Part shown: in pieces, positions 728 through 21,739 of the stretch | Layout: each line of letters opens with the position of its first letter | Numbering within the stretch: the first letter of the stretch is position 1 | IMG/VR virus record: IMGVR_UViG_3300020185_004277 | Span: 1-29,790 of that record | Strand: one strand, 5' to 3' | Length of the DNA: 29,790 nucleotides | DNA from: a virus | The notes under the pieces: generated by a model | What the model was told of the DNA's origin: nothing | Database searches by the model: none | Seen by the model: only the letters and a program-made list of their open reading frames with translations | Translations under genes and position numbers: made by a program

Positions 728-1411
728 ATGGATAACTTTACAATATTAGCAAATAAAATCCTTTCAGAATCAATTCAGAATGAATATATGTCCTTCGATG
801 ATATATACAGCCAGCCAGGTGCTACTGATTTAAGAGATGAAATGTTAGGTTTAAATGATAAAATTTTTGATGCAATAGACAGAAAAGATAAAGAAGCTCA
901 TTTAGCAGCATTACAAGAGTATGAAGACTTAAGAGATGAAGCTTTAGCTAAATTTGGGGTAGATGGTCCTGTTGGTCTTATTGATCCAGATATGCATGGT
1001 GAATATTCAGATGATTTTAAAAGTGAAAATGGAGTTAGACCGCGCAGTGACGCTTTAAATACTTTTAGAAATGTAGTTGAATTTTATGCAGATGGTAGAC
1101 ATGGTAAGATCGTAGGAGATCAATATGTAGCTCCTGAAGTAAAAAGTTATATAGGTTCAGAAGATCAGGAAAGTGGACCGCAAATTCGTTCATTAGATGG
1201 ATTTTTTAGCGACGAAGAGGCTTTACCGGAAGATGCCGAGTCTAGCTTAACCCCAGAAGATTTAAAGACCATTGAAACTGTTAAAAAATTAGCGAGTGGC
1301 GAGGCTAAGGGCGGTATAAATCCGTTTGACAATCCTGAAAAAAAGATAAAAAAAGCGTACGGTAATATCTTAAACCAAGTATCAGCTAAAATTAATAAAA
1401 TAAAATTATAA
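728..1411 (+). CDS. Putative head/virion protein with capsid-targeting-like N-terminus, 227 aa
   Basis: Acidic, mostly helical protein of unknown family. The first 14 residues (MDNFTILANKILSE) form a short amphipathic segment ending in LSE, fitting the (L/I)xE site that the T4 prohead protease gp21 cuts in internal head proteins. Residues about 25-75 are charged and helical (DLRDEML, LAALQEYEDLRDEAL); the middle is loop-rich and acidic; the C-terminus (NPEKKIKKAYGNILNQVSAK) is basic. It is driven by a late-type octamer and starts a run of late genes to 4866, with the next ATG 1 bp after its stop. A virion role is inference from promoter, N-terminus and context. Confidence 0.65.
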   Translation: MDNFTILANKILSESIQNEYMSFDDIYSQPGATDLRDEMLGLNDKIFDAIDRKDKEAHLAALQEYEDLRDEALAKFGVDGPVGLIDPDMHGEYSDDFKSENGVRPRSDALNTFRNVVEFYADGRHGKIVGDQYVAPEVKSYIGSEDQESGPQIRSLDGFFSDEEALPEDAESSLTPEDLKTIETVKKLASGEAKGGINPFDNPEKKIKKAYGNILNQVSAKINKIKL

Positions 1412-1412
1412 T

Positions 1413-1748
1413 ATGAAATTCTTAAAGAAAATATATGATCTCAATTTAATTAATGAAGCTGACGAGCCTCCTCCACCTCCAGGCGCTGAGGCGGACGCTA
1501 GTGTAGAAGATCCTGGCACGGCTCCTACAGAAGAGCCAACTGAAGAGGTAGTAACTGAGTTATCCCCGGAGAGTGAGGTAATGTATGTCAGGTTACTCAA
1601 AAAGGCTATGGTGATGGATATTGACCCGGAGGATATTGATAATATTATTAATATCGGCGATATTAATGAGACTAACGCTAAAGAATTACTCGGTTCTATA
1701 CTTCAAATAATGAAGTCTTATTCAACTGATATTGACATCGAAACATGA
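1413..1748 (+). CDS. Small acidic Pro/Glu-rich putative virion protein, 111 aa
   Basis: The N-terminus MKFLKKIYDLNLINEADE is a basic amphipathic helix ending in INE, a candidate (L/I)xE capsid-targeting cleavage site at residues 13-15. A low-complexity linker of about 35 residues follows (a run of prolines, then Glu/Thr/Pro), then a compact helical domain (about residues 52-105: SPESEVMYVRLLKKAMVMDI, IDNIINIGDINETNAKELLG). Such linker-plus-small-helical-domain proteins are common in T4-like marine phages next to head genes. The ATG follows the previous stop by 1 bp, and its own stop overlaps the next ATG by 4 bp, so translation is probably coupled. Exact role unknown. Confidence 0.7.
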   Translation: MKFLKKIYDLNLINEADEPPPPPGAEADASVEDPGTAPTEEPTEEVVTELSPESEVMYVRLLKKAMVMDIDPEDIDNIINIGDINETNAKELLGSILQIMKSYSTDIDIET

Positions 1749-2929
1749 GCTGGCGATCATTAGATCAAGTATACTTACAAGAATCTGCTGGTAAATCAGT
1801 AGGTAAATTACCTAGACAGCGTGTATTGGGTGAAGAATTATATAATGTAAAGTATAAGAAAGAATCTCAACCTGAATATACTGATCTAAATGTTGATAGT
1901 GAGCAGTTTGAAAAAGCTTACCGTTACCTCAATACACCTGGTAGTAGTATTAAAAAGGTAATTGAATCATTACAGCTTTCTGGTCTAACAGCTATTCAAG
2001 TTAAAGAGGTTATCGAAGTTGTATACCGATATGACGAGCCAGATAAGTTCTTTGCTGCATTAGAAAATAAAATGCCTATGAAAGAGTTTTTATCAGCTCC
2101 TAGTAATAATATAGTCGATCTGGTATCGAGTAAGTACGATCTAGATAAGGATTTAGTTGGTGATCTATTAATGTTTGCACCGACAACACAACCAGTTACA
2201 GGTAGATGTGAAACTTTTATAATATTATTTGTTGAAGGTGCTCGTAAGGGTACAGCTGGAGGTGATATAGAGCTCGCCGATGACGAAAGTGATATAGAGC
2301 TCGCCGATACCGAAGGTGATATAGAGATAGGCAAAACACAATATGAAATAAAGGGTTCTGGAGCTAGACTGAAAGGTCAGAAGGGGTTTGGATCTCAGCC
2401 AGCTGCTTTACGTACGTTTACTAACGGGGTACAGCAGCTAATTACAAAATCCGGGTTACAACTTGATTTTAAAAATCCAGATTTTGATGTTTTAGTGAGA
2501 ACTAACGGGTTTATTGATCAGATTGCTAACGAATTAGTAGCAACAGGTAATGTAACAAAACAAGACATAGCTCAATTATATGCTAATGGATATGCAGAGC
2601 TTTACACGAATGCCGATAATCAAGCAGATTTATTAAGCTGGATCGAGCCAAATTTAGACGAAAATGGTAATATAGGTGATAAGTTTAGAGAGGCTTATTT
2701 CTTATTTGCTGCAAAGTACTATGCTGATCAAGAGGATTTTGATTACATTCTATTTATAGGTACAGAGCGAATTAAAAAACCGAAAGATTTTGGTAAGTTA
2801 CAATATATATCAGCAGCTGATGTAAAGGATAAATCTACATCTATTTTTAGTAAAGTAATAAGAGGTTATCCTAGTATCAAGCCTAATGCTGGTCCACAAG
2901 GATCGTTCTTCTCAGTTAAACCTCAATAA
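1745..2929 (+). CDS. PD-(D/E)XK nuclease-like putative virion cargo protein, 394 aa
   Basis: The N-terminus (MSWRSLDQVYLQE) ends in LQE at residues 11-13, a possible prohead-protease site. Residues 150-215 look like a restriction-endonuclease-type core: a helix beginning near TGRCETFIILFVEGA, then GDIEIGKTQYEIKGSGARL with a candidate metal-binding Asp (D192) and E201-x-K203, the usual D...(E/D)xK arrangement. Just before it a 9-residue unit (GDIELADDE-like) is repeated, giving extra candidate Asp residues at D174 and D183. The C-terminal half is mixed alpha/beta. It overlaps the previous gene by 4 bp and is followed after 2 bp by the ligase-like gene. A packaged DNA-cutting protein is one reading; an inactive structural relative is the alternative. 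Confidence 0.6.
   Translation: MSWRSLDQVYLQESAGKSVGKLPRQRVLGEELYNVKYKKESQPEYTDLNVDSEQFEKAYRYLNTPGSSIKKVIESLQLSGLTAIQVKEVIEVVYRYDEPDKFFAALENKMPMKEFLSAPSNNIVDLVSSKYDLDKDLVGDLLMFAPTTQPVTGRCETFIILFVEGARKGTAGGDIELADDESDIELADTEGDIEIGKTQYEIKGSGARLKGQKGFGSQPAALRTFTNGVQQLITKSGLQLDFKNPDFDVLVRTNGFIDQIANELVATGNVTKQDIAQLYANGYAELYTNADNQADLLSWIEPNLDENGNIGDKFREAYFLFAAKYYADQEDFDYILFIGTERIKKPKDFGKLQYISAADVKDKSTSIFSKVIRGYPSIKPNAGPQGSFFSVKPQ
2262..2332 (+). repeat. In-frame tandem repeat, 27-bp unit, about 2.6 copies
   Basis: Units begin at 2262, 2289 and 2316. The first two are nearly identical; the third diverges after about 12 bases. Each encodes a nine-residue block (GDIELADDE, SDIELADTE, GDIEIGKTQ) directly ahead of the E-x-K of the nuclease-like motif, so the repeat multiplies the candidate catalytic Asp. 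Confidence 0.85.
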
Positions 2930-2931
2930 GA

Positions 2932-4866
2932 ATGAAACCATTTAAGCAATATTACAATACTATACGTTTAATAGAAGAGCAAGCAGCTAATAAACACCTC
3001 ACTCACTTAGAAGAGCTTATTTTAACAAGAGGGCAGGAAGGTTATGATGTAGCTAAGAGCGTATTAACAAACTTACTTTCTCATCTTCAAGGTAAATCAA
3101 AAAATAACATTGGAGTTTCTACTAAATGGGATGGAGCGCCGGCTATATTTGTTGGTCGAGTTGATACAAAGGATGGTAAAAATAAGTTTTTTATAAATAC
3201 AAAATCTATTTTTAATAAACAACAACAGAAAAATAACTTTAGTATCGAAGATATTATTAATCATAACTACCCGGAAGGTCTTGAGCAAAAGCTTATTGCA
3301 GCATTTAATAGTCTTAAAGGTATGAAAATTAAACCTAATTCTATGGTTCAAGGTGATTTGATGTTTACCACTAGTTTAGAGGATTCAAAACAGGTGATTG
3401 ACGGTGAAGAGTTTATTGTTTTTAAACCTAATACTATCACTTATGCTGTACTTGCTGATTCAGATTTTGGTAGACAGTTAGCCAATTCAAACTTGGGTGT
3501 TATTTTTCATACAGGTTACCCTAATATATCTTCATCATATCATGACGACAATAAAGATGGTGAGTTGAGATTATATATAACAGTAGAAGAAGGTAGTGGA
3601 GATCCTATTGAATATAATGCTCAACTTAAAAAGTACAATATTGACCCAAAACAAATGGCGAGTGAAGGTGTATGGGTCGATGATGCTAACTTTACGGATG
3701 ATACAGGTATTGTTACCTTAACAGAAGACGAAGCAAAACAGGTACGTGATTTAATTAAGACTGCTGATATGCTTAAGGTTAATTATAGTGATCTACCGGT
3801 AGCAGAGTTAAATATTTACGGTAATACGGAGATTAAGAAGGGGACGTTTTTTGATAACCCTGAAAAATCATACGATGATTTTTATGATTGGTATTTTGAA
3901 CGTGGTAATACTGCAATTAATAAGGTTACAACAGATAAACGTAAAGGAGAGCTAAGAGTTATATGGGATAAAAAGTTAGAGCAAGTATCTCAACGTAAGG
4001 TTGACATTATTAACATCTTTAAGATTAGTAAGTTACTTCAACAAGCTAAACAAATTTTTGTTAATAAATACAACAACGCTATTTACACCACAAAACACTT
4101 TATAGATAATGGTGATGGTATATTAAAGACGACATCACCGGAGGGTTATGTAGCTGTTCAGAATGATGGTAACGCTGTTAAGCTTGTTGATAGATTAGAG
4201 TTTAGTGCTGCTAATTTCGGTACTGGTAAGCCAACATCACCAGCTGTAGCAGAACAAGAATCAGTCTATTCAAATCCACCTAATCGTCGGGTTCACAGCC
4301 CGGGTAGTGGACCTGTTGAGAATTTTAAGGATTTATATAATAAACTAATTGCTGAAGATGAAAATGCTGAAACAATTGCTTTATATCCCGGTGGTTACAA
4401 GCCGCCAACAAAAGGTCACTACCATTCTTTCGATTACATCTTACAAGATGCAGATAAAGGTGTAATTTTTATAGGTAAGAAAGAAAGAGATGGTATTACA
4501 GCTGAGCAATCAAAGCAGATATGGGAAATATATGCAAAATATTTAGGTAAGCCAGTTGAAGTTATTATCTCTGACGTCACCCCTGTTAAATCTGTATATG
4601 ATTACGCAGATAATAATAAAGATGTTAATATTATAGTAGGAGCTGGTGATAAAGACGACGATGTAAAGCGGTATGCATACTTTGAGAAGAATATAGAAAA
4701 ATATCCGTTAGTACGTGTTGTAAAAATACCTCTTCAATCAGAAGGTATATCAGGTACAATGACAAGAGAGTTAATTGCTTCAGATATCGATAAAGCTATC
4801 GACTATTTTACCCCTGAAGTATTATCTACAGAAGATAAAGCTAATATTAAGCAAATATTAAGTTAA
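2932..4866 (+). CDS. Bifunctional protein: ligase-like nucleotidyltransferase domain fused to an NMNAT/cytidylyltransferase-like domain, 644 aa
   Basis: Residues 1-16 (MKPFKQYYNTIRLIEE) are a capsid-targeting-like segment with LIE/IEE. Residues about 20-430 carry the marks of covalent nucleotidyltransferases (DNA/RNA ligase superfamily): K65-W-D-G (motif I KxDG, the lysine that would carry AMP), QGDLMF at 140-145 (motif III-like), EGYV at 404-407 (motif IV-like) and VKLVDR at 416-421 (motif V-like). A linker (about 435-480) leads to a HIGH-superfamily domain at 483-644: YPGGYKPPTKGHYHSF, with T/HxGH-like TKGH, and ISGTMTRELI resembling the ISSTxxR motif of NMN adenylyltransferases and related enzymes. 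The domain assignments are seen in the sequence; substrates are unknown. It ends a late operon and converges on the gene at 4869. N-terminal relatives are, from memory, common in T4-like marine phages. Confidence 0.7.
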   Translation: MKPFKQYYNTIRLIEEQAANKHLTHLEELILTRGQEGYDVAKSVLTNLLSHLQGKSKNNIGVSTKWDGAPAIFVGRVDTKDGKNKFFINTKSIFNKQQQKNNFSIEDIINHNYPEGLEQKLIAAFNSLKGMKIKPNSMVQGDLMFTTSLEDSKQVIDGEEFIVFKPNTITYAVLADSDFGRQLANSNLGVIFHTGYPNISSSYHDDNKDGELRLYITVEEGSGDPIEYNAQLKKYNIDPKQMASEGVWVDDANFTDDTGIVTLTEDEAKQVRDLIKTADMLKVNYSDLPVAELNIYGNTEIKKGTFFDNPEKSYDDFYDWYFERGNTAINKVTTDKRKGELRVIWDKKLEQVSQRKVDIINIFKISKLLQQAKQIFVNKYNNAIYTTKHFIDNGDGILKTTSPEGYVAVQNDGNAVKLVDRLEFSAANFGTGKPTSPAVAEQESVYSNPPNRRVHSPGSGPVENFKDLYNKLIAEDENAETIALYPGGYKPPTKGHYHSFDYILQDADKGVIFIGKKERDGITAEQSKQIWEIYAKYLGKPVEVIISDVTPVKSVYDYADNNKDVNIIVGAGDKDDDVKRYAYFEKNIEKYPLVRVVKIPLQSEGISGTMTRELIASDIDKAIDYFTPEVLSTEDKANIKQILS

Positions 4867-4868
4867 GC

Positions 4869-5531
4869 TTAAGCAAATCCGGTCTTTTTAGCTACTTCAT
4901 CACCATCGAACTCGTCGATTTCAATATCGTCTTCTTCGTCTTCAACATTAGCATCTAATGCATCATATTCTAGTGCATGGTATACAGATGAAAGATAATC
5001 AGAAGCTTTTGTAATTTTACTTGCTGTCCAACCTTCTAAGCTACCAACATTAGCAAGATGATTAAATAATTTTGTAGCATATTCAGCTGCTTTAAGTAAT
5101 TCAGCTCTTGCCATATCTATCTCACCATCAAAATCGTCGTCATCTTCTACTTGACTGATGCATGGTGTTTGACCGCAACCGCAATTTGATTCACCAGCAC
5201 CATCACCAGCTTGAATATAAACTTCTTCATCGCTATGTGGACGACCACATTCCTCTTCTGGTTTTGCATAATTCTCAGCATTTTCAGCATTTTTTGCACA
5301 TTCAGGGCAACCTCCGCATGTGCAACCGTTCTTAGCTTCTTCACACTCTGAATGAGTCTCTTCATCGCTAAAAGCATTAAATGCTGTTCCGCCTGGTGTA
5401 CGCCTAGGTGGGTGTTTAGTTGTATGTCCGATTTTAATAGTTACAATCGATGGGGTGTTAGGGCCAAGACCTAAAGCTTCATTTACTTGTTTATATTGTT
5501 CAAAGATTAAATTACTATCATTCGTTGACAT
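4869..5531 (-). CDS. Cys-rich acidic putative virion protein, 220 aa
   Basis: The N-terminus (MSTNDSNLIFEQ) has a candidate (L/I)xE site, IFE at 9-11. Residues about 55-130 are rich in Cys and Glu, with paired cysteines (CTCGGCPEC, then GCGQTPC) that could bind zinc or iron. After an Asp-rich stretch a helical module (about residues 142-190) reads ELLKAAEYATKLFNHL, then GWTASKITKASDYLSSVYHA. That GW-x-SKIT-x-A-x-DYL pattern recurs, as I recall, in small head-associated proteins of marine T4-like phages. The C-terminus is strongly acidic. A perfect TATAAATA lies 5 bp upstream of the ATG on this strand. It is the only minus-strand gene in the 728-7828 virion block. Function unknown. Confidence 0.7.
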   Translation of the reverse strand: MSTNDSNLIFEQYKQVNEALGLGPNTPSIVTIKIGHTTKHPPRRTPGGTAFNAFSDEETHSECEEAKNGCTCGGCPECAKNAENAENYAKPEEECGRPHSDEEVYIQAGDGAGESNCGCGQTPCISQVEDDDDFDGEIDMARAELLKAAEYATKLFNHLANVGSLEGWTASKITKASDYLSSVYHALEYDALDANVEDEEDDIEIDEFDGDEVAKKTGFA

Positions 5532-5536
5532 ATAAT

Positions 5537-5544
5537 TATTTATA
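5537..5544 (-). promoter_or_regulatory. Late promoter octamer TATAAATA
   Basis: Perfect T4-late-type TATAAATA on the minus strand, 5 bp before the ATG at 5531. It is divergent from the plus-strand octamer at 5549-5556, with only 4 bp between them. Confidence 0.75.
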
Positions 5545-5548
5545 CAAG

Positions 5549-5556
5549 ATTAAATA
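5549..5556 (+). promoter_or_regulatory. Late promoter octamer ATTAAATA
   Basis: ATTAAATA followed by 5 bp and the ATG at 5562. It is the plus-strand half of a back-to-back late promoter pair. Confidence 0.65.
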
Positions 5557-5561
5557 ATTTT

Positions 5562-5984
5562 ATGACTTTTAATAAATTATATGAATCATTAATGGAAACA
5601 TTAGAAGAATCAAAGAAGTGCTGGGATGGTTATGAAAAAGTACCAGGTATTGCGCGTAGTAAGCAAGGCTCATGCAAGAAAAAAACTGAAGGTGAAGAAG
5701 TACCTGAAGAGGATGCAGAATATAAAGGTAGGAAAGTAACTCTTAATAAACCTACAAGAGGAGATGTTAAGAAGTTTAAGGTGTATGTAAAGAATCCTAA
5801 AACTGGTAACGTAAAGAAGGTAAATTTCGGACACGGAGGAACATCTGCTAAGAGTAGAGGAGAAAAGACGATGAAAATTCGTAAGAGTAATCCAAAAGCT
5901 CGTAAATCTTTTAGAGCTAGACATAAATGTGATCAAAAGAAAGATAAAACTACTGCAGGTTACTGGAGTTGTCGCAAATGGTAA
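5562..5984 (+). CDS. Small basic Cys-containing putative virion protein, 140 aa
   Basis: Starts with an amphipathic segment (MTFNKLYESLMETLEE) holding two candidate (L/I)xE sites, LME and LEE. Two modules follow. Residues 20-41 read CWDGYEKVPG...GSCKKK, a short Cys-bounded motif common in marine phage proteins. Residues about 70-140 form a Lys/Arg-rich module ending RKSFRARHKCDQKKDK then YWSCRKW, where one His and two Cys could make a small metal site. A packaged DNA-binding or protein-binding role is plausible from the charge and late promoter, but not shown. The ATG is set by the octamer 5 bp upstream. Confidence 0.7.
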   Translation: MTFNKLYESLMETLEESKKCWDGYEKVPGIARSKQGSCKKKTEGEEVPEEDAEYKGRKVTLNKPTRGDVKKFKVYVKNPKTGNVKKVNFGHGGTSAKSRGEKTMKIRKSNPKARKSFRARHKCDQKKDKTTAGYWSCRKW

Positions 5985-6001
5985 TGAAGTACAACTACGT
6001 A

Positions 6002-6009
6002 ATTAAATA
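6002..6009 (+). promoter_or_regulatory. Late promoter octamer ATTAAATA
   Basis: ATTAAATA, 5 bp, then the ATG at 6015. Confidence 0.65.
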
Positions 6010-6014
6010 ATAGT

Positions 6015-6902
6015 ATGAGTATTAAGACAACTATAAATACCCCGGAAAATACTCTCAACTACATGAAATATGTTGAGATTGAGAATGATACTCGCTACCC
6101 TGCAGTTACAGGAGGGGCAGGTCAAGGTGTTTTTAATAAATCAGCAATCTTAGTACAGCAAGTCGACCCTCTTGGTTTAGATATCGGCGGTCAATCAGGT
6201 ATTAATTATATTGAGAAGTTTGGAGCTAATTTGTCAGTAAATTCTAATATCGAGACAATCTGGGATGCCGGCGGTGTATATACATACCTTACAACCGCAT
6301 CTAAGCTATCTGCTATCAGTGATAACCTAGAGGATTCATTAATAGGTACAGGTGCTAGATTAATTGAAGTTCAGGGGTTGGATGTTAATTATAATACTAT
6401 TACAGAAGTTATATCTTGCAACGCTACAGATGGTCGAAATGGTGGACCAGAATCTGTAAATGAATTCTTGAGGGTTTATAGAGCAGCAGTTCGAACAGCA
6501 GGCGCTGAAGGTACAAATGAAGGGTTTATAACTATAGATGCTAATATTGGACCTGTAATAGCTATAGGAACGCGCGGTGTAGGTGTTAATGAAGAGGGGT
6601 TCGGTCAATCCCAAACTAGCGTCTATACTATACCAGCTGGTAAGACAGGTTATCTGACTCAGTGGTCGGTCGGGTCGAGTGACTCTTCGAAACAAATACA
6701 TGCATACTTTATGGCGTCAGAAGTCAATAATGGCAAAATTATGAGAGTAAAAGATGTAATGTTTCTAAGTAATTACTCTATTAAAGATTATAAGGTACCG
6801 CTGCCTTTTACGGAAATGACGGATATAGAGGTAAGAGCTTGGGACGGCTCCACTGGAACAGCTGTATCTACATCTTATAATATAATCTTAGTAGATAATT
6901 AA
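6015..6902 (+). CDS. Putative phage structural protein, beta-rich, 295 aa
   Basis: The sequence is typical of a virion surface or neck/tail protein. The middle holds a pattern I associate with a structural family seen in many marine phages: an ETIWDAGGVYTYL stretch near residues 80-92, IEVQGLDVNYNTITEV near 117-132, then a conserved FLRVYRAAVRTAGAEGTNEG region, and a C-terminal beta region (YTIPAGKTGYLTQWSVGSS, then IEVRAWDGSTGTAVS). No signal peptide, membrane segment or enzyme motif is visible. It has its own late promoter and is followed 41 bp later by another structural gene with its own late promoter. The exact place in the virion cannot be told from sequence alone. Confidence 0.7.
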   Translation: MSIKTTINTPENTLNYMKYVEIENDTRYPAVTGGAGQGVFNKSAILVQQVDPLGLDIGGQSGINYIEKFGANLSVNSNIETIWDAGGVYTYLTTASKLSAISDNLEDSLIGTGARLIEVQGLDVNYNTITEVISCNATDGRNGGPESVNEFLRVYRAAVRTAGAEGTNEGFITIDANIGPVIAIGTRGVGVNEEGFGQSQTSVYTIPAGKTGYLTQWSVGSSDSSKQIHAYFMASEVNNGKIMRVKDVMFLSNYSIKDYKVPLPFTEMTDIEVRAWDGSTGTAVSTSYNIILVDN

Positions 6903-6930
6903 TGTAAGGCAGTAAAAAATAGTTTTACTA

Positions 6931-6938
6931 CATAAATA
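6931..6938 (+). promoter_or_regulatory. Late promoter octamer CATAAATA
   Basis: CATAAATA, 5 bp, then the ATG at 6944. A weak A/T hairpin (AGTAAAA...TTTTACT, 6911-6929) lies just before it and might end the upstream transcript. Confidence 0.65.
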
Positions 6939-6943
6939 CAAAT

Positions 6944-7828
6944 ATGGCTATTGTACCTATTGTAAATGATGTATCTATTCTTACTATCCGTGAGGTTATA
7001 AATTTAAAGAGTATAATACTAGGTCAAATTCAAAGTCGGTTTTCCGGATCAGGTCAATATGATGTTGATTTACAAAACGGCTTTATAAAAGTAAAATTAA
7101 AGAACTTTAGATCGGGGTATAGTCCTACTATCAAAATTACTGTATATAAAGGAGCGGTAGTGTACCGTACTGCAACGTTTAATCTCGCCTCCACTTCTAC
7201 ACATATCGAAACTTTTAATGGGTTACCGCAGGGTACATATAGTGTTAAGATAGACGAAACTACTACACCGAACAGGTCTCAACAAGTTAATATTATATTC
7301 GGAAATTACCAGAGTATATACATTTTAAATCAATACCCGGTTGTAGATATTAGTATAGCTCAGGATAGCGGAAATATAACATCTAACTGGGATCGCGCAG
7401 AAGGTGTTAATATACCGAGAGCTCTTTCACCTACTAATGATGCGAATGTAGGGTTAAAAGAGTGGAGAGGTGCACAGGTTTTTCAAGGTACTTATTTCAC
7501 TCAAGATTCTAGTCAAGGTAGATACGGTGCAGATAAGATAAACGGAATAATAACTTTATATTTAAATAAAGCTGGTTTTAGTAATGGCACAGTTACAGTA
7601 AACATAGACGGTGGTCAGAGCGTTACTCGTAATCTACAAACATCAACTTCAAACAAATACACGTTTAAAGGTCTTGCGTCTGGTTCTAGACAAATTAAAA
7701 TAACCGACAACTTAACGGGGAGTTATCAGTATTTACGTACCACAGTAGGTCTAGAGCAACCTGCAAATCGAAGAACTCGTACATATGCCTTTAATGGTCT
7801 AGATGTATTAACAGGGTATACGGTATAA
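6944..7828 (+). CDS. Putative tail/baseplate-type structural protein with two similar beta domains, 294 aa
   Basis: A beta-rich protein without enzyme motifs. Two segments are alike: residues about 78-104 (TFNLASTSTHIETFNGLPQG then TYSVKID) and about 229-254 (RNLQTSTSNKYTFKGLASG then SRQIKITD). Each has the strand-turn-strand ending of an Ig-like or carbohydrate-binding-like sandwich, so the gene probably arose by domain duplication. Between them is a loop-rich region (residues 140-200, ITSNWDRAEGVNIPRALSP). It has its own late octamer. A role in the tail or as a virion decoration is inferred from context. Confidence 0.65.
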   Translation: MAIVPIVNDVSILTIREVINLKSIILGQIQSRFSGSGQYDVDLQNGFIKVKLKNFRSGYSPTIKITVYKGAVVYRTATFNLASTSTHIETFNGLPQGTYSVKIDETTTPNRSQQVNIIFGNYQSIYILNQYPVVDISIAQDSGNITSNWDRAEGVNIPRALSPTNDANVGLKEWRGAQVFQGTYFTQDSSQGRYGADKINGIITLYLNKAGFSNGTVTVNIDGGQSVTRNLQTSTSNKYTFKGLASGSRQIKITDNLTGSYQYLRTTVGLEQPANRRTRTYAFNGLDVLTGYTV

Positions 7829-7870
7829 GTCCATACTTGCTATTAATAAGAGTTATAATAATTAAATTAT

Positions 7871-10639: not shown

Positions 10640-11132
10640 TTAATTTATTATATATTAACTCTAAGTACTTATCAAGATATCTTCTTATAGCTGCTTTTTT
10701 CTTCTGCTTAATAATGTTACTATCATTTAGTATTTCTAGAGCTGTCTCATAATGACCTTCTAGCGACATAACTATCATAATAAATAATGGAGCTAGTACG
10801 TTATTTTCATTACATACAAATAATATAATATTCTCTTGATTACATAAATCTTTTATATATTTTAACTTACTCAATAGTATTGATTCTCTAATTTTAGATC
10901 TGAGTAACGTCTGGGTATCAGTTCTGCAGTCAGGTTTAATTTTTTTAATACCTATAAGATCTTTATTATCAAAAAAATTATGAGATTTAATACCTAACTT
11001 TAATAACTGTAAGCTCTGTTCTGATGAAAGCTGATCACGCTCGGTTAAATTAACAACTATTTTGATGTCCAGTAAATTTGATCGACCGCGAGGGGTGAGC
11101 ATATGTTCAGTTAACTCACTAAACGTACTCAT
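10623..11132 (-). CDS. Dual-specificity-phosphatase-like protein lacking the catalytic CX5R, 169 aa
   Basis: I choose the start at 11132 (MSTFSELTEHML). A longer frame starting at 11159 exists, but TATAAT at 11142-11147 would lie inside it. The layout recalls small tyrosine/dual-specificity phosphatases: IKIVVNLTERDQL with LGIKSHNF (compare the usual 'v-i-N-L... G-i-x-h'), a long helix, then a buried strand IILFVC where the phosphate loop begins, followed by a hydrophobic helix and GHYETALEIL. The loop reads C107-NENNVLAP with no Arg six residues after the Cys, so it should not be an active phosphatase. The family call is tentative. Its end overlaps the oxygenase start, so the two form an operon. 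Confidence 0.5.
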   Translation of the reverse strand: MSTFSELTEHMLTPRGRSNLLDIKIVVNLTERDQLSSEQSLQLLKLGIKSHNFFDNKDLIGIKKIKPDCRTDTQTLLRSKIRESILLSKLKYIKDLCNQENIILFVCNENNVLAPLFIMIVMSLEGHYETALEILNDSNIIKQKKKAAIRRYLDKYLELIYNKLNEISK

Positions 11133-11141
11133 ATATAGATT

Positions 11142-11147
11142 ATTATA
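11142..11147 (-). promoter_or_regulatory. Possible early-type -10 element for the 11132 gene
   Basis: TATAAT on the minus strand, 9 bp before the ATG at 11132. I see no convincing -35, so this is a weak call. Confidence 0.3.
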
Positions 11148-11192
11148 TACTAATATCATTGGATATATTTAAAAATATGAATAATTACTTAG

Positions 11193-12050
11193 GTGATAGC
11201 TGATAATAAGCAAGATATTATAGATCTGAGAAAAAGGCAGATAGCTGTAGATGCTGATAAGACCCCAATGAAAGCGCTGCAAAGTATTACTATCAACCCG
11301 ACTGAATTGTGCAACCGTACTTGCCACTTTTGCCCACGAAGCGATCCTAAGGTTTACCCTAATCAAAACTTGCACATATCAGAAGATACTGTCAGGTCGT
11401 TAAGTCGCCAGTTAGCAATAAACAATTACTCTAATAGAGTTGGATGGTCTGGCAACGGAGAGCCGTTGCTTACTAAAGATTTTTATAAATTAGTAAAAAT
11501 TATAAATGATGAAAATCCTCAACTAAGAGTTCATGAAATTAATACTAACGGAGATAAAATAAAGGATGGTACAATAGAAAAAATATATCAAGCTGGTATT
11601 AATCATATTGTTATTAGTCTGTATGATGGTGAAGAGCAATTAGAAAAATTTAATAAAATGTTTGAAGGGTATAATTCTGATGCCTTTACTCTACGTAAGA
11701 GCTACTATCATTCAGATAATTTTTCTGGATTTACAAACAGAGCAGGAGCAGTGAAAGTTAATACAAATTTATTGAAGGATAATATAAAGAATAAATGTTA
11801 TTTACCTTTTTATAAACTTTTTATTGACTGGAATGGAGATCAAATATTATGCTGTGAGGATTGGTTTAAACTCTCAAAAAATAAACTCAACATTAATACC
11901 CATACTTTAAAAGAAATATGGGAGTCGGCATTCTTAGATAAATATAGGCAACATTTAAATAAGGGTAAGAGAGATTTAGCTGTATGTAATAAATGTAATA
12001 TACATGGCGAAAAAGTAGGTAAACAATACACGGAATATTATAAATTATGA
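11193..12050 (+). CDS. Radical SAM protein with SPASM-like C-terminus, 285 aa
   Basis: The radical SAM cluster motif CX3CX2C is C40, C44, C47 (TELCNRTCHFCPRS). GNGEP at 88-91 is the usual GGEP-like motif. The C-terminal half has C202, C220, C221, C265 and C268 (ILCCEDW and CNKCNIHG), the arrangement of a SPASM/twitch auxiliary-cluster domain ending in a CxxC. These enzymes do radical modifications of peptides, sugars or small molecules. The start is a GTG with no good Shine-Dalgarno. It overlaps the next gene by 4 bp (ATGA). It is a clear paralogue of the gene at 13691: both carry CPRSD(P/A)KVYPN(Q/R)NL. Substrate unknown; the setting suggests sugar metabolism. Confidence 0.85.
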   Translation: MIADNKQDIIDLRKRQIAVDADKTPMKALQSITINPTELCNRTCHFCPRSDPKVYPNQNLHISEDTVRSLSRQLAINNYSNRVGWSGNGEPLLTKDFYKLVKIINDENPQLRVHEINTNGDKIKDGTIEKIYQAGINHIVISLYDGEEQLEKFNKMFEGYNSDAFTLRKSYYHSDNFSGFTNRAGAVKVNTNLLKDNIKNKCYLPFYKLFIDWNGDQILCCEDWFKLSKNKLNINTHTLKEIWESAFLDKYRQHLNKGKRDLAVCNKCNIHGEKVGKQYTEYYKL

Positions 12051-13036
12051 TTTATTTTGCACAAGCAATTAGAGAGAGAACAACCTATACTGATTTTTTA
12101 ATTGGGCTTATAATGCTCAATCAATATTATAGTAAGTATGATAAGGCTTTTTATATAAAAGAAGATATTGCAAATGTCTTTGAAAACAAAAGCTGTGTCT
12201 TTCATAATATAGAAGAAAATAATTCATATAAACTTCTTAAAAATTTAAGATTGAAAGCAGTAAAAGATCTTCCAGTCGATCCGATGCATCGCGATGATAC
12301 CTATCTTAAGCAATTATTTATAGAAAGAGTTACCAGAGGTAATAATATTAACGATATGTATGTTAACGGTATAGATGCTGGTGATAACTTCTTATTAGAC
12401 AATACGGTAAAATTTTATTACCTCAGTACATACGACGATGAGAATTTGCATTATATTAATAACAGTAAAAAGCGAAAGAATAAAAGTAGTGTTAAAATAA
12501 AACTTAAAACATCGAATGATAAAATAACGGCTAGTAAGTTTACTAAAGATAAGTACTTTATAAATCTACCAACTTTTAGGATAAATGGTCAGGAAGATAT
12601 AAAAATGTTAGATATTTTTTGTAAGTTTTTAATAAATGAAACTCAATATAAAAATCTTATTTTAATTAGCGGTAGTAATGATTATAAGACTTATTTTAGC
12701 GATAAGTTCGGGATAGAAACGACACATATGTATAACGATGGATTTTCGAGTGAGAAGCTAGGTTTTAGAAAGAAGGAAGCTGGATTTATTTGTAAGGATA
12801 AGGGCTCACTGAATAGCTTACTAACCGATTGTATGTATATACAAAACTCACCTGCTAGTTATATAGATTTTATGCAGGTATATAATGTACATAGAGAAGA
12901 TCTATTTAAATATGGTATGAGTAAGTATAGCGACTCGTATTACGATACATTTATAACTAGAAATAAAAGCCAAGCGATTGATATTATAGGTCGCGAGCTC
13001 AAGCGTAATAAAGTTTTTTATGAAGACAAAAGTTAA
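12047..13036 (+). CDS. Unknown protein between radical SAM and GT8 genes, 329 aa
   Basis: No catalytic motif is recognised. It begins MIYFAQAIRERTTYTDFLIG, without signal peptide. Around residues 160-215 a strand-helix-strand passage (FINLPTFRI, LILISGSNDYKTYFSDKF) resembles part of the protein at 9166, so a distant sugar-transferase relationship is possible. The C-terminus is basic. It is coupled on both sides: ATGA overlap with the radical SAM gene and a 17-bp overlap with the GT8-like gene. Such coupling suggests the three products work in one pathway. Confidence 0.6.
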   Translation: MIYFAQAIRERTTYTDFLIGLIMLNQYYSKYDKAFYIKEDIANVFENKSCVFHNIEENNSYKLLKNLRLKAVKDLPVDPMHRDDTYLKQLFIERVTRGNNINDMYVNGIDAGDNFLLDNTVKFYYLSTYDDENLHYINNSKKRKNKSSVKIKLKTSNDKITASKFTKDKYFINLPTFRINGQEDIKMLDIFCKFLINETQYKNLILISGSNDYKTYFSDKFGIETTHMYNDGFSSEKLGFRKKEAGFICKDKGSLNSLLTDCMYIQNSPASYIDFMQVYNVHREDLFKYGMSKYSDSYYDTFITRNKSQAIDIIGRELKRNKVFYEDKS

Positions 13037-13694
13037 AATATTTGTAGGTTTAGATGAACCAAATAAAATATCATACGATGTTTGCGTTAAGAGTATATTA
13101 TCAAAAAATGTAAAGTATGATTTAGATATAATACCTATTAACTATAATACGGTTAAGGATTATAAGAGAAAAAAAGATCCATTCGAATCAACTCAGTTTG
13201 CTTTTGCACGTTTTTTCGTACCACATCTCAGTGAATTTACCGGTATTAGTATTTTTATGGATGGTGATTTTTTATTTTTAGATAATATTGATAATCTTAT
13301 AGATTTATATGATGATAGGTATGCGGTCATGTGTTGCCAGCATGACTACAAACCTTTAAATCTTGAAAAAATGGATGGTAAACCGCAAACACAATGGCCT
13401 CGTAAGAACTGGAGCAGTTTAATGATTTTTAATTGCAATCACCCTAAAAACAAAACACTTACCCCAATGACTATTAATAATCAGTCAGGGGCTTTTTTAC
13501 ATAGATTTAAATGGTTAGATGATTGTGAGGTTGGTTCGCTACCATTGCAATGGAACTGGCTTGTCGATTGGTATAAAGAGCCTGGTGATGGAGCACCTAA
13601 AGCTTTACATTATACCGAAGGTGGTCCATGGTTAGATAAGTTTAAAGATTGCGAATACGCAGATGAATGGCTAGAACAATATAAGTTAGTTTAA
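13020..13694 (+). CDS. GT8-like glycosyltransferase, 224 aa
   Basis: GT-A fold transferase. IKIFVGLDEPNKISYDVCV opens the first nucleotide-binding strand. D81-G-D83 in ISIFMDGDFLFL is the DxD metal/nucleotide-sugar motif. HYTEGGPW near residues 197-204 is the conserved His-containing motif close to the C-terminus of GT8-type enzymes. Length and features agree with phage and bacterial lipopolysaccharide-type transferases. The ATG overlaps the previous gene by 17 bp. Its end overlaps by 4 bp with the convergent radical SAM gene. Donor and acceptor cannot be read from sequence. Confidence 0.75.
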   Translation: MKTKVKIFVGLDEPNKISYDVCVKSILSKNVKYDLDIIPINYNTVKDYKRKKDPFESTQFAFARFFVPHLSEFTGISIFMDGDFLFLDNIDNLIDLYDDRYAVMCCQHDYKPLNLEKMDGKPQTQWPRKNWSSLMIFNCNHPKNKTLTPMTINNQSGAFLHRFKWLDDCEVGSLPLQWNWLVDWYKEPGDGAPKALHYTEGGPWLDKFKDCEYADEWLEQYKLV

Positions 13695-14569
13695 TTGTAA
13701 AAGCTCTTAAATAAATTGAAGCTCTTTTCACCATAAACCTGACCGTGAACTTCACAGTTAGTACAGGGTGATATACCTTTACGACCGCTCTGTATATGAT
13801 GCTGTCTAATAGTCTTTGCAGCTTCCGAAAGCCATATATCCTTTATAGAGGTATCGTGTATATTACCAAATTTTACATCTTTTCTCCAGTTATGTGTACA
13901 TAAAAGCACATCTCCATTCCAGTCTATAAACGATGAATTAAATGACATATAGCATGGTCTAGTAGGTACAGCCTTTTCATTTAATTTCATCATACCTACA
14001 CGATTACTAATACCTGACATACCATACTCCTCTTCTGGACCGTACCAGAATCTCTTAACAATATACTGGTCAGAAGTAATACCGCATTCATCGAATAATT
14101 TTAAAAATTGCTCTTCTTGCTCTGGACCGTCATATAGACTCATCTTTAATAAGTCTAGACCATTTTCGAATAACCCTATTAACGTCTCTTTACTAAGTAA
14201 GTCCCCATTTGTTGTTATAGAAATATTATTATTATGTTTAAGCTTATCTCTAAATGTCTTAATAATTTTAAATATCTGTTTATTAGCTAATGGCTCACTG
14301 AACCCAGCAAATACTACTTGATTTCTATAATCAAATTCAGCTAAATCGTTAGCTAGCTTTTCACATGTCTTAATTGACATATTTAAATTACGATTAGGGT
14401 AAACTTTTGCATCAGATCGCGGACAAAACACACATTTTCTTGTACATATTTCAGTTACATTTATATCGATTATCTGCAAAGCAGACATAATATTAGTTTC
14501 ATCGATCTCGAAGTTATTAAAAATATTTTTTCTAAATTCAATAAATTCGTTTGTAGGTACACTATCCAT
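13691..14569 (-). CDS. Radical SAM protein with SPASM-like C-terminus (paralogue of the gene at 11193), 292 aa
   Basis: The CX3CX2C motif is C42, C46, C49 (TEICTRKCVFCPRS), and FSEP at 90-93 takes the place of GGEP. Auxiliary-cluster cysteines are at C206, C224, C269 and C272 (LLCTHNW and CTNCEVHG). It is alignable over its length with the protein at 11193, including NRVGMMKLN versus NRAGAVKVN and IDWNGD in both. It faces the opposite way, has its own early-type promoter, and converges on the GT8-like gene. Two diverged copies in one block suggest two related steps, or a duplication with specialisation. Reaction and substrate unknown. Confidence 0.85.
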   Translation of the reverse strand: MDSVPTNEFIEFRKNIFNNFEIDETNIMSALQIIDINVTEICTRKCVFCPRSDAKVYPNRNLNMSIKTCEKLANDLAEFDYRNQVVFAGFSEPLANKQIFKIIKTFRDKLKHNNNISITTNGDLLSKETLIGLFENGLDLLKMSLYDGPEQEEQFLKLFDECGITSDQYIVKRFWYGPEEEYGMSGISNRVGMMKLNEKAVPTRPCYMSFNSSFIDWNGDVLLCTHNWRKDVKFGNIHDTSIKDIWLSEAAKTIRQHHIQSGRKGISPCTNCEVHGQVYGEKSFNLFKSFYN

Positions 14570-14576
14570 ATAGTAT

Positions 14577-14604
14577 ATTATATAGTAACTATTCTATTTT
14601 TAAA
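14577..14604 (-). promoter_or_regulatory. Early-type promoter of the minus-strand radical SAM gene
   Basis: TATAAT (14577-14582) lies 7 bp before the ATG at 14569. A weak -35, TTTAAA (14599-14604), is 16 bp further up. Geometry is close to the folE/queD/queE class. Confidence 0.5.
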
Positions 14605-14625
14605 CTTGAATCTGAAAATAAAGCA

Positions 14626-14633
14626 AGTAAATA
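14626..14633 (+). promoter_or_regulatory. Late-like octamer AGTAAATA
   Basis: AGTAAATA lies 8 bp before the ATG at 14642. It keeps the TAAATA core but has an unusual start and wider spacing, so it is a weaker member of the late class. It also lies inside the longer frame beginning at 14606, which argues for the 14642 start. Confidence 0.45.
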
Positions 14634-14641
14634 TTTTTTAT

Positions 14642-14830
14642 ATGACAGATATCGAAAATAATATTAATTCACTTAAGGAAAATTACGAGCACTTTACAGC
14701 AGATGTTGCCAACTTTACAGAAAGAGGTAATAAGGCAGCTGCTACTCGAGCTCGAAAAGCTCTGCTAGAGATATCTAAGCTTTGCAAAGATGTAAGAAAA
14801 CAGATTCAAGAGATAAAGAATGACAGTTAA
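14642..14830 (+). CDS. Histone H1-like small basic helical protein, 62 aa
   Basis: Starting at the ATG at 14642 the protein reads MTDIENNINSLKENYEHFTA and continues into ERGNKAAATRARKALLEISK and a Lys/Arg-rich helical end. The GNKAAxTRARKAL core is what small histone-H1/Hc1-like proteins of T4-like marine phages look like. All of it should be helical. It probably binds DNA or acts as a nucleoid-like packaging aid; this is from family resemblance. An upstream ATG at 14606 would add 12 residues but would place the promoter octamer inside the gene. The next gene's late octamer begins 2 bp after its stop. Confidence 0.65.
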   Translation: MTDIENNINSLKENYEHFTADVANFTERGNKAAATRARKALLEISKLCKDVRKQIQEIKNDS

Positions 14831-14831
14831 G

Positions 14832-14839
14832 CATAAATA
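14832..14839 (+). promoter_or_regulatory. Late promoter octamer CATAAATA
   Basis: CATAAATA, 5 bp, then the GTG at 14845. The spacing picks the GTG over the out-of-frame ATG at 14843. Confidence 0.65.
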
Positions 14840-14844
14840 ATAAT

Positions 14845-15285
14845 GTGATTACTTTTAAACATTTTTTTGAATCAAAACAACCATTAGGGTTGATCGAAAC
14901 TATTACATTTGAAGACCTAGGTCCCATTGAAGCTAAGATTGATAGCGGTAATGGAGCTTACAATGTCTTACACGGGGTTAATTTAGAGTTTAGTGGTCTA
15001 GATGATAACTACGAAGGTAGATCTCACGTTACATTTGAAACGGTAGATGGTAAGACTGTAAAAAAGCGTGTTGTTGAGTTTATCGATATCAATATTGGTT
15101 CCGGTAATATCGAAGAAAGACCTGTTGTAGAGTTTGATATTAAAATAGGTGATGAATTGCACCCTAATACAAAATTCTCTATAGGTGATAGAACAGAAAA
15201 CGAGTATAAAATACTCGTTGGTAAAGATTTTATTGAAGAGCTTGGCGGCGTCATCGACGTCACCAAGCAAAACAATTTAGACTAA
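14845..15285 (+). CDS. Retropepsin-like aspartic protease (RimB/DUF785-like) with capsid-targeting-like N-terminus, 146 aa
   Basis: IEAKIDSGNGAYNVLHG (residues 28-44) matches the catalytic DSG/DTG loop of the RimB/DUF785 retropepsin-like family, with D33-S34-G35. The end, IGDRTENEYKILVGKDFIEE then GGVIDVTKQN, matches that family's 'R...LlGR.fl...vDp' ending. About 120 residues of core is the family's usual size. The N-terminus (MITFKHFFESKQPLGLIE) has an (L/I)xE site at residues 16-18, as in the other putative packaged proteins. The start is GTG, placed by the late octamer. It touches the convergent folE gene with no gap. Target proteins unknown. Confidence 0.7.
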   Translation: MITFKHFFESKQPLGLIETITFEDLGPIEAKIDSGNGAYNVLHGVNLEFSGLDDNYEGRSHVTFETVDGKTVKKRVVEFIDINIGSGNIEERPVVEFDIKIGDELHPNTKFSIGDRTENEYKILVGKDFIEELGGVIDVTKQNNLD

Positions 15286-15936
15286 TTAACTCTTCATATC
15301 AGCTACAAACTGATAGAATTCACTTCTAGTAGATGCATCTTCTAAGAAATCGCCAGTTAACTTTGATGTTTTCATCTCACATCCATCATGCTTCACACCT
15401 CTTAAACAAGCACATGTATGGGTAGCTGATAACATAACTGCTACACCTTTATTTCCTTCACATATTTCATTAATTGCATCTTGAATCTGAACAGTTAATC
15501 CTTCTTGAATCTGAGGTCGACGAGCATAATGCTCTACAATTCTATTAAGCTTACTTAACCCAATTACTTTACCGTCTTTTGAAGGAATATAAGCAACATG
15601 AGCTACTCCTGTAAATGCTAGATGATGATGAGAGCAAAGACTCTTAACTGGTATACCACCTTGAAATACCATCCCATCATAACCATCAGATGGGAATGCA
15701 GTAACATTAGGTAACTCATTATAACAACCTGCTGCTAAGTCATTCACATAAGCTTTTGCAACGCGTCTAGGTGTATTATCACTATTAGGATCCTTACGCC
15801 AATCAATACGTAACGCATCTAAGAACTTTTCATAAGCAAACGTTGCATCATTAATGACATCTGCTTTTTCTTCATCTGTTAACGGCATATTACCGTTAGC
15901 TGTTGGTAATTTCGTAGTTTTAACTCTTTCTGACAT
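15286..15936 (-). CDS. folE: GTP cyclohydrolase I
   Basis: Converts GTP to 7,8-dihydroneopterin triphosphate, the entry step shared by folate and 7-deazaguanine synthesis. The zinc and catalytic motifs are present: C101-SHHH in SLCSHHHLAF, the GKVIGLSKLNRIVEHYARRP stretch, and HTC175ACLRG near the C-terminus. Length (216 aa) is normal for bacterial FolE. The ATG at 15936 is set by a TTGACT-16-TATAAT promoter whose -10 ends 6 bp upstream. queD and queE in this window continue the pathway, so the product is probably headed for 7-deazaguanine rather than folate. High confidence. Confidence 0.95.
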   Translation of the reverse strand: MSERVKTTKLPTANGNMPLTDEEKADVINDATFAYEKFLDALRIDWRKDPNSDNTPRRVAKAYVNDLAAGCYNELPNVTAFPSDGYDGMVFQGGIPVKSLCSHHHLAFTGVAHVAYIPSKDGKVIGLSKLNRIVEHYARRPQIQEGLTVQIQDAINEICEGNKGVAVMLSATHTCACLRGVKHDGCEMKTSKLTGDFLEDASTRSEFYQFVADMKS

Positions 15937-15942
15937 ACATTA

Positions 15943-15970
15943 ATTATATAGTATATTACTATAAAGTCAA
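15943..15970 (-). promoter_or_regulatory. Early-type promoter of folE
   Basis: TTGACT (15965-15970), 16-bp spacer, TATAAT (15943-15948), then 6 bp to the ATG at 15936. The expected transcription start is the A of the ATG. The -35 overlaps by 2 bp the late octamer of the divergent gene at 15986. Confidence 0.85.
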
Positions 15971-15976
15971 TAAATA
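15969..15976 (+). promoter_or_regulatory. Late-like octamer AATAAATA
   Basis: AATAAATA, 9 bp before the ATG at 15986. The spacing is wider than in most late genes. It shares bases 15969-15970 with the folE -35. Confidence 0.5.
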
Positions 15977-15985
15977 ATATTAACA

Positions 15986-17680
15986 ATGAGCAATTTTTTA
16001 AAAATAATACAGGAAGCTACCCCAGCTACTGATACCCCTCCTGGTGATGATGTTAAGGTTGGCCCTAATTCTCCTGTTAAAAAAGGAGGCTTCTTGCAGA
16101 AGGCTGCAGCGGGCGCGGCAAAGGCTACCGCTATAATACAAAAAGGTGAGCAGATATCACAAGGTAAATGGGATGTCACGACTGCATTACAACGTATATT
16201 AGATAGTCAATTAGATAATAGTACCAAGAAGTTAGGTAAGTTTGGAAAGGATGGGTTTAAAAAAATAAGATTAGGATCTGACATTGTTGAAAAAATAAAT
16301 GAATATATACCGAAGAGCGCGGAGACAGGACCGGCGGTAACTGACGCGCCGTCTGACGACGTTAGTGAGTCTTATAGAATTAACAGTAATTTCTTACGAC
16401 GTATAACAGAAGTAACAGCTGTTATGACTCCAGATCCTGTGGATGGCAAATATAAGACAGCTCATAAAAGTAAAAAACCTGTTGTAGAACGAGTTTATGA
16501 TATATTAAAAACATTCGATCTAGAGCCTCCGATTAATTTTAAGGTAAAAAATGTTAATGGAAAGAAAGATGATGATCGGAGGATTAAGTGGATAACAAAG
16601 GGAGCTAGCTCCTTTTTATCTGGAGTTAGAGAATTATATCCCGACTTTAAGTTTACATTTTCAAAAGACCCAGGTGATTTATCAGTAGGGATGGGATCTC
16701 AAAACGATGAGCCTAGTGAAGATAATGAAGCTGCGGTTGCTAAGAGATTAGGATTTAAGACTGTAAGAGAATTTCGAGCTGCGGCTAAGGAAGCTGGAGG
16801 ACCAGCTAAGTATTTTGAACAAAACCCTGATAAGGCTGAATTAGTTAGATGGGATAGTAGTAAGAGTAATGTAGATAATTTTAATCAATATACAATAGGA
16901 GATATACCAGACGAAATGGAAGATCTAGATCTTCCAGAAGATTTTCAAGGCACTAGTAAGTCAGACTTCATGAAGAGTATTGGTCGCAAAAATATTGAAA
17001 CATTAGTTAGAGGTCTGGCCGATATATACCCTAATGAAAATATAAGATTTCCAGACGATGATCCTGATACAGAGGATGGTCCAGATACCGGCGAAGCGCC
17101 TGATCCAGAAATTACAGAAGATATAGCCCTCTTCGAGCTAGCTAAACCAAACGGTTATGGGCAGAAGGGTACTCAATATACACTCAAACCTCTTACACCT
17201 GAGCTCGGTAATATGTTGAAACAAAAAGATATTAAATATCTAACATATTTAAATCAAACCCCACAGAATGAGTTTAAAGTACCAGAATCAAATGTAGGTA
17301 TAATATATGCATATGATAATAATAATGAAGTTATTAATGATATTACAACAGAATTTGCGCGGTTTCAATGGAACGGTCAAGATAAACTATATACCATAAG
17401 CACAAAAAATAAAGAATTAATGGGTGTTAGTTATAGTGAAGGTCAATTCCCTATTAAAGAAACGGATGCTGCGTTTATAGATCCAGCGGGTAAGTATCTT
17501 ATATATAAGGATAAAGAATCCGGTAATTTAGCTAAATGGCCTATAGTTACCCAAAAATCACCTACAGGTATATATACTATCAACAAAAATAAACCACAGC
17601 CTATAACTGAAAAAGATAAAAATGATGTTATTGAAGCTGAATCGACAACAGAATCACCACCGTTATCCGCAACTGCTTAA
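15986..17680 (+). CDS. Large modular putative virion protein, 564 aa
   Basis: The N-terminus MSNFLKIIQEATPATD has IQE at residues 8-10, a possible (L/I)xE prohead-protease site. A Gly/Ala/Lys-rich segment follows (QKAAAGAAKATAIIQKGEQI), then two related small helical units: about residues 160-225 (VVERVYDILKTF...SGVRELYPDFKF) and about 310-345 (SDFMKSIGRKNIETLVRGLA then DIYPNENIRF). Both pair a helix with a (R/A)xLYP / IYP ending. Acidic linkers (DDDPDTEDGPDTGEAPDPE) separate parts, and the last 200 residues are beta-rich. No enzyme motif is seen. Late promoter and composition suggest a virion component or packaged protein. Confidence 0.65.
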   Translation: MSNFLKIIQEATPATDTPPGDDVKVGPNSPVKKGGFLQKAAAGAAKATAIIQKGEQISQGKWDVTTALQRILDSQLDNSTKKLGKFGKDGFKKIRLGSDIVEKINEYIPKSAETGPAVTDAPSDDVSESYRINSNFLRRITEVTAVMTPDPVDGKYKTAHKSKKPVVERVYDILKTFDLEPPINFKVKNVNGKKDDDRRIKWITKGASSFLSGVRELYPDFKFTFSKDPGDLSVGMGSQNDEPSEDNEAAVAKRLGFKTVREFRAAAKEAGGPAKYFEQNPDKAELVRWDSSKSNVDNFNQYTIGDIPDEMEDLDLPEDFQGTSKSDFMKSIGRKNIETLVRGLADIYPNENIRFPDDDPDTEDGPDTGEAPDPEITEDIALFELAKPNGYGQKGTQYTLKPLTPELGNMLKQKDIKYLTYLNQTPQNEFKVPESNVGIIYAYDNNNEVINDITTEFARFQWNGQDKLYTISTKNKELMGVSYSEGQFPIKETDAAFIDPAGKYLIYKDKESGNLAKWPIVTQKSPTGIYTINKNKPQPITEKDKNDVIEAESTTESPPLSATA

Positions 17681-21725: not shown

Positions 21726-21733
21726 ATTAAATA
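21726..21733 (+). promoter_or_regulatory. Late promoter octamer ATTAAATA of the NUDIX gene
   Basis: ATTAAATA, 5 bp, then the GTG at 21739. It overlaps the opposite octamer at 21732-21739 by 2 bp. Confidence 0.6.
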
Positions 21734-21739
21734 TTTATG
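21732..21739 (-). promoter_or_regulatory. Late promoter octamer CATAAATA of the holin gene
   Basis: CATAAATA on the minus strand, 19 bp upstream of the holin ATG at 21712. Confidence 0.55.

Follow-up and report, generated by a model that had tools for sequence, protein, structure and literature searches.

The window analysed here, a viral contig of 29.8 kb from a marine relative of phage T4, encodes nine proteins that begin with a short leader and continue into quite different bodies. The original prediction had listed eight proteins that start with a short amphipathic stretch ending in (L/I)xE. All eight open reading frames and their N-termini were found where it had placed them, and seven of the eight carry an amphipathic leader of 10-15 residues with this ending, whereas that of the gene at 14845 ends in FFE. 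A ninth gene, at 21739, encodes a Nudix hydrolase and had been overlooked.

The genes are named below by their first coordinate, and a slash closes each leader. The first gene (728..1411, plus strand; leader 728-769, MDNFTILANKILSE/S) encodes an acidic protein of 227 aa and net charge -19 whose body has no assignment, and genes 1413, 1745 and 2932 trail it with gaps of 1-3 nt or an overlap. The second (1413..1748, plus; leader 1413-1457, MKFLKKIYDLNLINE/A) encodes 111 acidic residues (net charge -18) and is a candidate core-like protein. The third (1745..2929, plus; leader 1745-1783, MSWRSLDQVYLQE/S) has a PD-(D/E)XK nuclease-like body, and the fourth (2932..4866, plus; leader 2932-2976, MKPFKQYYNTIRLIE/E) fuses a DUF6267 part to a PPAT/NMNAT-like nucleotidyltransferase. 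On the minus strand follows a very acidic protein of 220 aa and net charge -31 with a Cys-rich middle (4869..5531; leader 5499-5531, MSTNDSNLIFE/Q). The sixth (5562..5984, plus; leader 5562-5597, MTFNKLYESLME/T) has a basic phrog_7595 body of net charge +21. Further along lie a protein with a PF05618 Zn_protease-like domain (14845..15285, plus; leader 14845-14871, MITFKHFFE/S), a 564-aa protein whose body has no assignment (15986..17680, plus; leader 15986-16015, MSNFLKIIQE/A) and the Nudix hydrolase, which has a GTG start and a basic tail (21739..22314, plus; leader 21739-21777, MIFNDLVNLVVSE/K).

Two of the leaders are non-canonical at P3. That of 14845 has F there, and other contigs read FKQFFIE/K or FKQYFEE/K; the LIE at residue 18, which the original prediction had taken as the leader end, was rejected because it lies within the conserved protease body, where LGLIE is conserved among the orthologues listed. 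The leader of 21739 ends in VSE, and its orthologue in the relative G003 reads MILNNLTGLVISE/N.

The functions proposed earlier for three of the bodies hold as predictions. In the nuclease-like protein 1745, the PD-(D/E)XK residues E156, D192, E201 and K203 are invariant across 13 aligned sequences, most of them only 16-24% identical to the window protein; its structure model (mean pLDDT 51) was of too low quality to be searched by fold, and a profile search against solved-structure sequences gave only chance-level matches to FtsX. The NMNAT-like assignment of 2932 applies to the C-terminus (residues 479-644), which adopts a predicted PPAT/NMNAT fold: the model aligns to PPAT with a VIA-align Z of 13-14, at 2.5-3 A over ~145 residues, and inspection of the sequence places TKGH at 493 and ISGTMTR at 606, motifs of the (H/T)xGH and ISxxxxR type. 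When the complete 2932 model was searched by fold, the matches covered this C-terminal domain and did not extend to DUF6267. The DUF6267 part scores 238 bits and has KWDG at residue 65, which presumably recalls the KxDG nucleotidyl-lysine motif of nucleotide ligases and which we treat as a lead only. The protease-like protein 14845 matches PF05618 Zn_protease at 32.9 bits against a curated cut-off of 27, and 21739 matches the Nudix family PF00293 at E=1.9e-13.

Other genes of the window are of separate interest. The leader-bearing protease-like gene 14845 has as its neighbour a gene (14606-14830) for a small protein that matches the histone H1-like Hc1 domain (PF07432, E 3e-20). A GTP cyclohydrolase I (15286-15936, minus), a QueD-like PTPS (17803-18435) and a QueE-like protein (19544-20290) together suggest 7-deazaguanine (preQ0-type) synthesis, perhaps with a role in DNA modification. 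Two similar radical SAM/SPASM-type proteins (11193-12050 and 13691-14569, minus; the Pfam match was run for 11193-12050) lie amid glycosyltransferase-like genes.

Relatives of the window's DUF6267 protein occur in 367 phage records, chiefly T4-like cyanophages, and Pelagibacter phage HTVC008M and Methylophilales phage Melnitz are among them. At the DNA level the first 20 kb of the window had no close relative or deposited match in the phage collection, and a protein search of this collection returned no relatives of 1745 and 15986. Contigs of the same clade are present in IMG/VR, and in the 185-kb relative G016 the orthologues of 728, 1413, 1745, 2932 and 4869 lie side by side; genes outside annotated records were called by a custom script. 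In one relative the terminase gene gp17 is broken after ~190 residues by an intein-like insert (L033:10099-11979), which contains a homing-endonuclease-like open reading frame.

To gauge how far the leader exceeds chance, we defined the canonical motif as [LI]xE with E at residues 8-16 and took internal windows of the same proteins as background. After dereplication by family, the motif occurs in 63.7 of the clade's 293 families against 28.1 expected (2.3-fold, p ~3.5e-10), with the excess concentrated at residues 8-15, and it is present in at least 60% of the non-redundant members of 20/131 families versus 6.0 for decoys. Within the window itself, 12/38 genes carry the motif against 4.55 expected (2.6-fold, p=0.0012). 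Five of these 12 are other genes, near chance level, so the motif alone cannot identify a member, and because the bare motif gives false positives each member needs orthologue support. A de novo EM motif search over family representatives scored barely above decoys and returned an uninterpretable motif, and HTVC008M showed no genome-wide motif excess.

Orthologues support the leader in 728, 1413, 2932, 4869, 5562, 14845 and 15986 and partly in 1745; for 21739 the support comes from one close orthologue. The terminal E of the 728 leader is retained in most divergent orthologues and lost in G016, where the 728-like protein reads ILKK, and losses recur elsewhere (YLQK in the 1745-like protein of G017; no E in L014, L010 and L016). 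The leader appears to be a movable module. In 1745 the first 16 residues average 69% identity over 14 homologues versus 29% for the body; in the other window families, 15986 excepted, the leader is no more conserved than the body. DUF6267 is tagged in the window's clade, in Melnitz (MINFSKYITE/D) and in DLP6 (MMKFTQFLAE/S), and is free of the tag in P-HM2, S-CRM01 and S-PM2, where the protein begins straight at its body. Melnitz carries tags on four adjacent genes (MQGFKTFLSE/A, MINFSKYITE/D, MKKFSELTSELIE/R and MKKFSEIIE/A). Unrelated bodies thus share the tag, namely the nuclease-like, DUF6267/nucleotidyltransferase, protease-like and Nudix proteins, to which relatives add a Fe/Mn superoxide dismutase. 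This leader-bearing dismutase was found in three relatives; the G016 copy (55023-55643; L143:15026-15643:-) has the capsid-targeting-like leader MNYDNLTDLLLE/ELNG, and its domain starts from residue 17.

The leader recurs inside two of the window's proteins. At the DUF6267/nucleotidyltransferase junction of 2932, in a low-confidence linker, lies FKDLYNKLIAE/D (4324..4356, plus), and in the structure model this junction tag is a lone helix (465-478) directly before the C-terminal domain. The tag, FxxLYxx(I/L)xxE, is conserved among the fused homologues listed, whose junctions read FKDLYNKLIAE/DE, FNELYNKIISE/DE, FDNLYSKIMSE/DE and FKSLYDNIVNE/SE, and it lines up with the tag at the N-terminus of the stand-alone enzyme. 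The sister contigs L014, L016, L017 and L018 encode the nucleotidyltransferase in a gene of its own; the tags of the stand-alone enzymes read MITFKEYFE/G and MKIFKEFFE/D, and L018 has MITFKDYFTQ, which is without the E. A second internal site, NFLRRITE/V (16388..16411, plus), lies within 15986, and its orthologues read FLSTINE/A and YFIKRINE/A.

Upstream of six of the nine genes we found a TAAATA box, at 717-722 (728), 5537-5542 on the minus strand (4869), 5551-5556 (5562), 14834-14839 (14845), 15971-15976 (15986) and 21728-21733 (21739). From box end to start codon the distance is exactly 5 nt in five cases and 9 nt in 15986, and the boxes support the predicted start codons of these six genes. 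Across the genomes of the clade, the 5-nt spacing stands out as a sharp peak (161/808 genes), and in 63 of the 808 genes a TATAAT ends 6 nt before the start. Shine-Dalgarno sequences are nearly absent from the window and its relatives; HTVC008M, by contrast, has a normal Shine-Dalgarno peak. From these sequence patterns, the clade of the window's phage probably makes leaderless transcripts. TAAATA is similar to the T4 late promoter core TATAAATA, so late expression of the leader genes is likely. Leader families did not differ significantly from others in carrying a late-type box (20/39 vs 108/289, p=0.068), and our first tests of the motif against late-promoter-like sequence were mostly non-significant, with only G003 reaching p=0.034.

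In phage T4, the capsid-targeting sequence (CTS) of IPIII needs only the first 10 residues, with residues 4 and 7 serving targeting and residues 8 and 10 processing (PMC9026906), and the leader is the only part that Ip1-3 share (PMC12373910). T4-type head genes accompany the leaders in relatives of the window. An initial search for the S77 family in the window and the first 15 relatives gave no match, but the controls were silent too, and the null was therefore not taken as absence. The window fragment is without a gp21 match; beyond it, the prohead protease search that the original prediction had called for located gp21 (S77) in G016 and G020. The head set of G016 comprises gp20, gp21 (E 7e-34), gp22, gp23, gp17 and sheath; its gp22 begins MDIKQILSE/ATGG, and its gp23 reads CLNE/AGPNYAG close to the position of the T4 site.

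Published mass spectrometry of purified cyanophage particles, in whose protein sequences we read the leaders, provides the virion evidence. Among the non-structural virion proteins listed for S-CREM2 (PMC10665884, Table 3), the tag is carried by the SAM hydrolase (MKDFDSFLEE), gp13 (MKDLHSFLTE), the APH kinase (MKRFDAFLTE), the cytidylyltransferase (MKNFSSFLTE/A) and gp136 (MQTFSMFFSE/D). The Cas9-like nuclease of the same virion (OR473000 7704-10313) has a delayed leader-like RFASFMAE/A ending at residue 25. A loose T4-like pattern matches 6/28 non-structural virion proteins versus 6/109 non-virion proteins (p=0.017), and a strict pattern built on the T4 residue classes matches 6/28 versus 3/109 (p=0.0024); the strict pattern was tightened, and its range widened to residue 26, after the sequences had been seen, which makes the looser p-value the fairer of the two. 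All four table entries classed as regulatory or DNA-metabolic, i.e., the SAM hydrolase, APH kinase, cytidylyltransferase and Cas9-like nuclease, are among the strict matches. Leaders are also found on the virion NMNAT of S-SCSM1 (MKSFLQFLKE/A) and the virion cytidylyltransferase of S-SM1 (MKKFSAFLNE/A). In S-SCSM1 the strict motif occurs in only 1/48 virion proteins, and ORF30 has a textbook leader (MKTFKQFMSE/S), yet no virion-protein annotation. These virion enzymes include a related cytidylyltransferase-type protein with the same type of tag as in the window and were detected in purified virions; in S-SM1 the cytidylyltransferase adjoins DUF6267 as a separate gene, while in the window's clade the two are fused. 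A literature search, which covered few subscription papers, found no paper linking cyanophage virion enzymes to a CTS.

Taken together, the leaders are very probably T4-type CTSs that mark late-made proteins for docking on the scaffold core, packaging in the prohead, cutting by a gp21-type protease and possible entry into the host with the DNA. We infer late timing, targeting, cleavage, packaging and delivery for the window's phage and clade along the following lines. The leader-bearing proteins would be made late, and their N-terminal amphipathic helix would dock them onto a gp22-type scaffold core of the prohead, around which the shell would close. A gp21-type prohead protease would then cut after (L/I)xE, leaving the mature protein free inside the head, from where it could pass into the host along with the DNA. 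The original proposal that leader-bearing enzymes are packed in the head and injected is partly supported: head packaging by a T4-type leader is well supported by the head set and protease of relatives and by the tagged enzymes in relatives' virions, with cleavage and injection as predicted steps; the site in 14845 had been misread, and false positives are frequent when the motif is used on its own.

Chance resemblance of ordinary amphipathic helices to the T4 leader is strongly disfavoured, and we consider it highly improbable. The bare motif is indeed common (~4.6 of the 38 window genes would be expected to match), and the de novo search yielded no clear motif, but the family-level excess with its positional peak, the conservation among orthologues, the gain or loss of the tag before the same body and the enrichment among S-CREM2 virion proteins all argue against it. 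It is likewise very unlikely that the leader directs proteins elsewhere, for example to the host membrane, or to the virion exterior rather than the head; relatives do have a tagged membrane-like protein of 93 aa (MSGFIRFLTEVGFPIAGAL...), but at residues 4, 7, 8 and 10 the leader agrees with the CTS defined by experiment in T4 (PMC9026906), and the gp22 and gp23 sites of a relative obey the same rule.

A different outcome inside the head carries more weight, although we judge it unlikely: the tagged proteins might mainly be parts of the prohead core (scaffold), chopped and expelled at maturation and not delivered as effectors. In T4, gp22, gp67 and gp68 belong to the core and are cut to fragments (PMC9026906); the small proteins 728, 1413 and 4869 are strongly acidic, each with more than one LxE-type site, and the clustered leader genes adjoin gp17 in G003 and G016. 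Against this, the Nudix, superoxide dismutase, PPAT/NMNAT-like, PD-(D/E)XK and Zn_protease-like bodies can still be recognised by domain or motif, and the mature virions of relatives were found to contain tagged enzymes. The small acidic members may nevertheless be core proteins that are cut up instead of delivered.

Packaging by a T4-type CTS, which we favour, places the window's clade beside T4, in which IPI, IPII, IPIII and Alt likewise carry a short N-terminal tag ending in (L/I)xE on unrelated bodies; an S77 protease and T4-type head genes, here in relatives, and late-promoter-like boxes are further likenesses. Unlike in T4, there are about nine tagged genes in the 30 kb of the window and roughly 18-20, counted by eye, in the 185-kb relative, several of the tagged bodies are enzymes, and proteins can have a tag-like sequence internally as well, at a domain junction. 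The giant phages SPN3US and phiKZ are similar in that their head proteins are cut by a gp21-like protease and many are ejected; phiKZ differs in its S/A-x-E sites and SPN3US in several propeptides of >100 residues (PMC9026906, PMC5694885).

The recurrence of the leader within the DUF6267-nucleotidyltransferase fusion is new here and, read from its sequence, predicts a cargo polyprotein: with a second tag-like sequence at the domain junction of 2932, two packaged enzymes may come from a single gene, and gp21 would separate the parts during maturation. More speculatively, marine T4-like phages may run a general cargo system, in which tagged proteins would be packaged, some as polyproteins cut at internal tags by the prohead protease inside the head. 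A nuclease, a nucleotidyltransferase, a protease and a Nudix hydrolase would then be delivered as soon as infection begins, joined in relatives by a superoxide dismutase.

The leader offers a sequence rule to predict the protein cargo in the heads of marine T4-like phages. It gives a possible reason for the NMNAT-like enzymes, kinases, SAM hydrolase and Cas9-like nuclease in cyanophage virion proteomes, which the authors of those proteomes were unable to tell from carry-over. The rule suggests cargo polyproteins processed by gp21, and with it the question of what marine T4-like phages inject becomes directly testable.
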